38,142 nt of DNA, from NCBI GenBank assembly GCA_001773135.1, contig MEVX01000019.1:1-38142 (forward strand). The letters are read 5' to 3'. The DNA comes from a candidate division WWE3 bacterium RIFOXYB1_FULL_43_24 (lineage in GTDB: Bacteria > Patescibacteriota > WWE3 > UBA101185 > UBA10185). Shown here in pieces: positions 13,110 to 27,710 of the stretch (position 1 is the stretch's first letter; every line of letters starts with the position of its first letter). The notes below the pieces were generated by a model, which ran no database searches, had not been told where the DNA came from, and was given only the letters and a program-made list of their open reading frames with translations. The position numbers were made by a program, and so were the translations under genes.

Positions 13110-13280
13110 CTTTTCTGGTGCCCCCGGCGGGAATTGGTCACGCGTTCTCGTCTGCTGACGATCCGCTCGACCCCGGCTCGGCACCGTCGTGCCTGCGCCA
13201 TTCAATTCCACTCGATTGGGCAGAAAAGCAACCGCTACCGTTGGTAGCGCTCGCTTTTCTGGTGCCCCCGGCGGGAATTG
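13110..13280 (-). repeat. tRNA-tail element A: direct repeat of tRNA-Arg 3' end flanking conserved core
   Basis: cttttctggtgcccccggcgggaattg at 13110-13136 and 13254-13280 (27/27 identical, period 144). Core 13137-13202; inverted degenerate third copy about 13200-13227. Confidence 0.88.
13222..13260 (-). other. Strong hairpin immediately 3' of tRNA-Arg
   Basis: agaaaagc 13222-13229 / gcttttct 13253-13260 and cgctacc 13233-13239 / ggtagcg 13243-13249; no T-tract. Confidence 0.75.
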
Positions 13281-13334
13281 AACCTGCATCTTATTCTTAG
13301 GAGGAACACGTTCTATCCGTTGAACTACGGGAGC
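13260..13334 (-). tRNA. tRNA-Arg (anticodon CCT), CCA encoded
   Basis: gctcccg ta gttc..gaac tgttc-ctCCTaa-gaata ... gcagg-ttcaatt-cccgc cgggggc a cca. Confidence 0.92.
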
Positions 13335-27476: not shown

Positions 27477-27655
27477 CGAAAATTCCTGGTGGACCGTAGG
27501 AGATTCGGTCACGCGTTATCGCCTGCTGGCGATCCGCTCGACCCCGCCTCACTCGCCTTCGCTCGTTGCGGCATTCGAATCTCTCCTTTACATAAAAAAA
27601 TTTCGCAAGCACCTGCGGCACTTCCGAAATTTCCTGGTGGACCGTAGGAGATTCG
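27477..27655 (-). repeat. tRNA-tail element B: direct repeat of tRNA-Ala 3' end flanking conserved core
   Basis: cgaaa(a/t)ttcctggtggaccgtaggagattcg at 27477-27507 and 27625-27655 (30/31, period 148). Core 27508-27575; inverted degenerate third copy about 27573-27606. Confidence 0.88.
27594..27632 (-). terminator. Terminator-like hairpin directly after tRNA-Ala
   Basis: Minus strand aaatttcg-gaagtgccgcaggtgcttg-cgaaattttttt. Confidence 0.82.
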
Positions 27656-27710
27656 AACTCCTGACCTCTTCCATGCCATGGAAGCGCTCTACCAACTAAG
27701 CTAACGGCCC
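27635..27710 (-). tRNA. tRNA-Ala (anticodon GGC), CCA encoded
   Basis: gggccgt ta gctt..gagc cttcc-atGGCat-ggaag ... aggag-ttcgaat-ctcct acggtcc a cca. Confidence 0.94.

Follow-up and report, generated by a model that had tools for sequence, protein, structure and literature searches.

A short insert at the tRNA-Ala(GGC) gene of a candidate division WWE3 bacterium, designated element B, was found to belong to a family of units of common design, whose existence, boundaries, fold, tRNA-specific arm, and gain and loss are shown by the data presented here. The fuller reading, that element B is one of a family of very small gene-less DNA elements inserted site-specifically at the tRNA and tmRNA genes of Patescibacteria with a trans-acting recombinase and a single DNA strand folded into the recombination site, is put forward as about as likely as not. 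The insert is associated with a direct repeat in the window (the whole 38,142-nucleotide stretch of DNA that was analysed), which an earlier note, made from the sequence alone, had placed at positions 27477-27507 and 27625-27655, with 30 of 31 bases identical and 117 nt between the copies; these values were confirmed. The additional claim that the copy reaches from the middle of the T-loop past the CCA held in part: the copies consist of the last 20 nt of tRNA-Ala(GGC), from R57 to A76, together with the common base C56 and a short stretch past the CCA, the duplicated block proper runs from C56 to the CCA, and identity beyond it is mostly incidental. The proposal that the repeats are host-specific while the interior is shared was likewise only partly upheld, in that sharing is confined to a core of approximately 69 nt (27507-27575); the hairpin beside the tRNA is not shared, and the segment at 27576-27586, being complementary to the T-stem, is specific to its tRNA.

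All features of element B lie on the minus strand. The tRNA-Ala(GGC) gene itself (27635-27710; ARAGORN, Rfam RF00005) is intact, and its 3' 20 nt (27635-27654) constitute copy 1. Immediately past the CCA is a long hairpin, H0 (27593-27634), evident from sequence and fold, which reads AAATTTCG...CGAAATTT and is followed by T's; its sequence varies between elements, and three other units are without it. There follows an arm, P0' (27576-27586; GGAGAGATTCG), whose complementarity to the 3' strand of the tRNA-Ala T-stem in copy 2 is supported by covariation in helix 1 and by a permutation test. The conserved 69-nt core (27507-27575; alignments A2 and A3, covariation and model R1) consists of AATG, hairpin 1 (27544-27571) and hairpin 2 (27507-27543), with GTGACC at its end. 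Copy 2 (27487-27506) is an exact match to the last 20 nt of the tRNA, from R57 to the CCA, in displaced position. The element therefore lies between a tRNA-contiguous 3' end (copy 1) and a displaced 3' end (copy 2), with its junction at C56|R57 of the T-loop. In the complete genome G001, the orthologous tRNA-Ala(GGC) gene carries an unrelated insert before the same native flank that lies behind element B.

The same design was observed at tRNA-Arg(CCT) (13260-13334, minus strand; ARAGORN), where element A (13116-13259, minus strand) comprises H0 (13221-13259), the P0' arm (13203-13210), the core (13136-13202) and copy 2 (13116-13135), copy 1 being at 13260-13279. The earlier note had recognised this shared design, and had argued that its presence at two tRNAs speaks against chance tandem duplication; both points held, the second by virtue of a shared core at many tRNAs. 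A scan for more tRNA-linked copies, which the note had proposed, was conducted on all 39 tRNAs plus the tmRNA of the 777,638-bp genome (G000; WWE3, Katanobacteria, Patescibacteria), and revealed 12 units with a common core, 11 of them behind eight tRNA genes and the tmRNA gene and one at a contig edge. Besides those at Arg(CCT) and Ala(GGC), units were located at Gly(CCC) (two, in tandem), Arg(TCG), Arg(GCG), Leu(GAG), Pro(GGG), Gln(CTG) (two) and the tmRNA. Chance alone would be expected to yield approximately 1e-8 exact 20-nt copies in the 300 nt behind 40 tRNAs. The two units at Gln(CTG) are distant from the tRNA (3.6 and 5.0 kb), the intervening DNA carrying HNH, DUF4145 and other genes. 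The possibility, raised in the note, that element B arose from element A by assembly chimerism is excluded, since the same design is present in other, independently assembled genomes, including the complete one (G001, 878,109 bp). The cores at Arg(TCG), Gly(CCC) and the tmRNA differ at only 2 of 69 bases even though the arms and copies differ, indicating that cores spread or convert between loci.

Several further tRNA-linked features were noted in passing. The unit at tRNA-Pro(GGG) (G000 C12:11930-12027) has a copy 2 that is split by approximately 38 nt holding two short inverted repeats. At tRNA-Val(TAC) (G000 C8:143890-144040) a second copy of the 3' end lies across a run of Ns and has the appearance of a scaffolding artefact, although in G001, too, the end of tRNA-Val(TAC) recurs, 43 nt downstream of the gene. 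A second type of tRNA-linked insert has a hairpin past the CCA and a different interior, in which there are common modules such as CAATTCTGCGAGCGAAGCGAGTGGAATTGCTTTG and often a T-arm-like piece, GGTTCGA; this interior is followed by the 3' end of the tRNA once more, either complete or in part. Inserts of this type were seen in G000 at Glu(TTC) (C8:98963), Glu(CTC) (C12:35094) and Ser(CGA) (C15:32497), and in G001 at Ala(GGC), Ala(CGC), Glu, Cys, Ser and Ile(GAT).

Considered across the family, units are arranged on the tRNA strand in the order tRNA (ending in copy 1), H0 (usually), P0' arm, AATG, hairpin 1, hairpin 2, GTGACC and copy 2. They are typically 95-190 bp or thereabouts in size and gene-less, genes being present only in a few larger intervals. 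The duplicated block is bounded exactly, almost without exception, by C56 in the T-loop and the CCA end. Among 59 cases with a full copy 2, the boundary on the T-loop side has exactly one common base (C56) in all but one, and identity beyond the CCA amounts to 0-2 nt in 51; the conserved element junction is GTGACC|RANNCC. The P0' arm pairs with its own copy better than with others (score of 6.10 versus a permuted mean of 4.50, sd 0.12), the highest score in 5000 permutations being 4.95. Copies associated with tRNA genes that lack an encoded CCA also lack the CCA, indicating that copying occurs at the DNA level and not from the mature tRNA; retro-copying from mature tRNA was rejected on this basis. 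In several units copy 2 is degenerate while copy 1 remains intact, and the acceptor end and CCA of copy 2 are missing at Pro in G000, Ser-GGA in G001, Leu-TAG in G010 and Leu-CAA in G041. Tandem arrays at a single tRNA combine unlike unit types. At Gln(CTG) of G002 the arm and copy 2 have changed together, indicating a constraint that acts while the unit is integrated, and which an RNA could also impose. A TnpB- or Cas-like guide was dismissed as the leading idea, since copy 2 has its first bases paired, with covariation, in helix P0.

The core of approximately 69 nt folds as a three-way junction with very strong covariation. Pairing was found in 97.2% of cells in an alignment of 20 units, where 79 changes are double-sided, and in an alignment of 72 units the corresponding values are 95.7% and 328; controls in which partners were slid gave roughly 30-45% pairing. 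These values indicate that the fold is under selection. For element B, the single-strand DNA fold of the core has a z-score of -2.3. The units contain 36 G-T pairs, 16 A-C mismatches and 1440 Watson-Crick pairs (one constant G-T pair being left out), whereas the acceptor and T-stems of tRNAs from two of the same genomes contain 57, 4 and 931, respectively. Wobbles are hence fewer in the units (p = 3e-5), and the ratio of wobbles to A-C mismatches is lower (p = 0.001), although these p-values are nominal, since the alignment was made to follow the structure and its rows are not independent of one another. The scarcity of G-T pairs and the relatively commoner A-C mismatches fit DNA better than RNA, albeit by an indirect argument, and it is likely that the fold is used as DNA; recombination of a single strand is itself inferred only from the covariation and the few G-T pairs.

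Evidence for insertion was obtained by comparing orthologous tRNAs with syntenic flanks on both sides in G000 and the complete genome G001. A unit is present only in G000 at Leu(GAG) and Arg(TCG), and only in G001 at Lys(CTT), the counterpart site being empty in each case. At Lys(CTT) of G001, copy 2 is identical to the 3' half of the unoccupied gene in G000, whereas copy 1 has two differences from it, which would be expected of a 3' half that arrived with the element. Presence and absence at matching loci show that units insert. The criterion for tRNA-gene islands of a regenerated tRNA and a displaced 3' fragment flanking an insert is met, as is the general criterion for mobile elements of filled and empty orthologous sites. 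We conclude that the units are mobile or formerly mobile tRNA-targeted elements, with the reservation that excision was not observed and no dedicated recombinase was found.

A covariance model built from 20 units recovered 72 in the DNA examined. Matches to the model were present in 14 of 45 genomes of the class and 48 of 380 genomes of the phylum sample, at many tRNA isotypes, and most of the matches inspected in distant genomes again lie behind a tRNA with a matching copy. One genome has 12 copies in 0.78 Mb and another at least 21. Among near relatives, units are numerous in G041 and G042 and absent from G017 and G040. A strict core pattern gave 15 matches in genome_contigs, all in Patescibacteria (including WWE3, Moranbacteria and Berkelbacteria), and no match in viral contigs. 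Searches against Rfam returned only tRNAs above threshold, with nothing credible for the units at E-values up to 5.

No recombinase was identified that tracks the units. Every one of the 45 genomes in the class sample, whether unit-bearing or not, has tyrosine recombinases (PF00589), generally two genes, and Y1 transposases (PF01797) are missing from the unit-bearing genomes G000-G003, G010 and G042; both were rejected as dedicated partners on the grounds of distribution. Large serine recombinases of the class adjoin tRNAs in 14 of 20 loci (L232-L251), where approximately 3 would be expected, and four islands have such a gene between the tRNA and a unit (G010 Pro, G012 Lys, G012 Glu and G042 His). 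In most of these islands the right end retains no more of the tRNA than its last 6-10 nt, which with H0 lie ahead of the unit; this suggests that crossover of the island took place at the CCA end of a tRNA behind which a unit was already present. At Lys(TTT) of G001 the order is tRNA, unit, copy 2 and recombinase, and many serine recombinases adjoining tRNAs occur in genomes without units. The islands were, in addition, found via distant units, so the association is biased by ascertainment. Gene order and this bias weaken the case for a serine recombinase as the owner of the units, and we read the islands and the units as independent insertions at the same tRNAs. As separate observations, a tyrosine recombinase of approximately 295 aa lies just downstream of, and convergent with, tRNA-Ile(TAT) (G000 C15:62721-63212; G001 C1:764321-764812), recombinases of similar length being found in most genomes of the class sample; and in G042 (L121:500-4720) a reverse transcriptase gene (PF00078) and two related small proteins lie between tRNA-Gly(CCC) and two units, a locus that gives the impression, but no more than that, of a diversity-generating retroelement.

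In the mechanism envisaged, the arm, core and tRNA 3' half would form a folded single-stranded DNA recombination site, loosely like an integron attC by analogy, and a recombinase supplied in trans, as yet unidentified, would join GTGACC|R57 of the element to GTTC|R57 of the tRNA. The element would thereby provide a replacement 3' end, such that the host gene is not destroyed. Cores are also spread or homogenised between elements at different tRNAs of one genome, without loss of the match of arm and copy to the tRNA beside them. The exact boundaries, filled and empty sites, the two-base difference of copy 1 at Lys(CTT) and the unrelated insert at Ala(GGC) in G001, mixed arrays, covariation, few G-T pairs, DNA-level copying and decay of copy 2 favour this insertion model. 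Against it stand the lack of any recombinase that tracks the units, the failure to observe excision or a circular form, the joint change at Gln of G002, and the unexplained matching of the arm to each new tRNA. A bolder reading is offered only tentatively, as less likely than not. On this view folded single-stranded DNA and the arm, which is complementary to the target tRNA, would form part of a phylum-wide, tRNA-based, integron-like system of gene-less elements; nearly every tRNA and tmRNA gene could receive an insertion in its T-loop and be restored on each occasion, and tandem arrays would be built up, with a recombinase acting in trans.

The main rival to the DNA-element reading, possible though less probable, is that a structured RNA, transcribed together with the tRNA or tmRNA, is encoded by the units and acts as RNA, insertion being merely the route of spread; such an RNA might take the form of a tRNA-like minihelix or work as a switch, with the arm and both 3' halves swapping partners as the tRNA matures. 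The strong, strand-consistent covariation, the invariable location on the tRNA strand, alternative folds that pair the tRNA 5' half with copy 2, and the compensating change of arm and copy 2 at Gln of G002 are all in its favour. However, G-U pairs are few relative to the tRNA stems of the same genomes, the acceptor end and CCA of copy 2 are gone in several units, and the units occur sporadically between close relatives and at differing tRNAs. It is unlikely that the units derive from larger, tRNA-integrated serine-recombinase islands, whether as end sites or as remnants, with the small ones being deletion derivatives or moved in trans by the recombinases of the islands. The four islands and the 14 tRNA-adjoining recombinase loci described above are consistent with such an origin, but the right ends that suggest crossover at a tRNA already bearing a unit, the reversed order at Lys(TTT) of G001, the discovery of the islands via distant units, and the tRNA-adjacent serine recombinases of unit-free genomes all count against it. 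Chance, simple tandem duplication of the tRNA end or an assembly artefact can be all but excluded: direct repeats alone would fit, but this explanation is refuted by a common covarying core that recurs at many tRNAs and, within the phylum sample, in 48 genomes, as well as by the exact boundaries, the tandem arrays of mixed type and the recovery from independent assemblies, including a complete genome.

With regard to known systems, partial tRNAs left behind by integrated elements of kilobases and more have been described (PMC9897764). The units resemble the genomic islands and IMEs of tRNA and tmRNA genes (Islander; PMC4383910) in their target, in having a regenerated gene on one side and a displaced 3' fragment on the other, and in the identity block from T-loop to 3' end. 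They differ in being approximately 100-190 bp as opposed to kilobases, in having no integrase or any other gene (the island criterion of an integrase on board is not met by typical units), and in their folded covarying core, their tRNA-complementary arm and the recurrence of one core at many tRNAs of a genome. Integron attC sites act as a folded single strand, with crossover by a helix of which one side comes from the target, and form tandem arrays with cargo between copies. The units share, by inference, the folded strand and the crossover beside such a helix, and also the tandem arrays and, in some cases, the cargo; however, they target the tRNA T-loop, form a three-way junction rather than one long hairpin, have no identified integron integrase and, with GTGACC|RANNCC at the junction, do not meet the attC R-box consensus (RYYYAAC / GTTRRRY). 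REP/REPIN sequences with their RAYTs, and MITEs, are likewise short, gene-less, structured repeats present in many copies per genome and presumably moved in trans, whereas the terminal repeats of the units come from the tRNA and the Y1 family is missing in several carriers. Casposons and CRISPR adaptation (Cas1) target sites near the T-loop and 3' end of tRNA genes, duplicating the target. The units are similar in target site and duplication but are small, without Cas1 on board, and have a folded core and an arm matched to the tRNA. The open-access literature that was searched contained no description of such elements, although an earlier description elsewhere is not ruled out. By the tests applied here, a gene-less element of this size with strong covariation and a target-matched arm fits neither the tRNA-integrated elements nor the attC, REP or Rfam families. 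The family appears to be undescribed, a judgement that rests on these tests and on that search; the mechanism may yet prove to be a variant of site-specific integration.

On a practical level, the copies are tRNA 3' fragments able to mislead tRNA annotation, and the units may break metagenome assemblies at tRNA genes; contigs ending in or beside a unit were noted at the start of G000 C18, the ends of G042 C68 and C75, and the start of G043 C50. More broadly, the units would add a novel class of repeat to a very large phylum of tiny genomes, most of whose members are uncultured, with tRNA genes as safe harbours, and the questions of how a core of approximately 70 nt comes to be matched to a given tRNA, and whether the folded single strand is the substrate, become testable.
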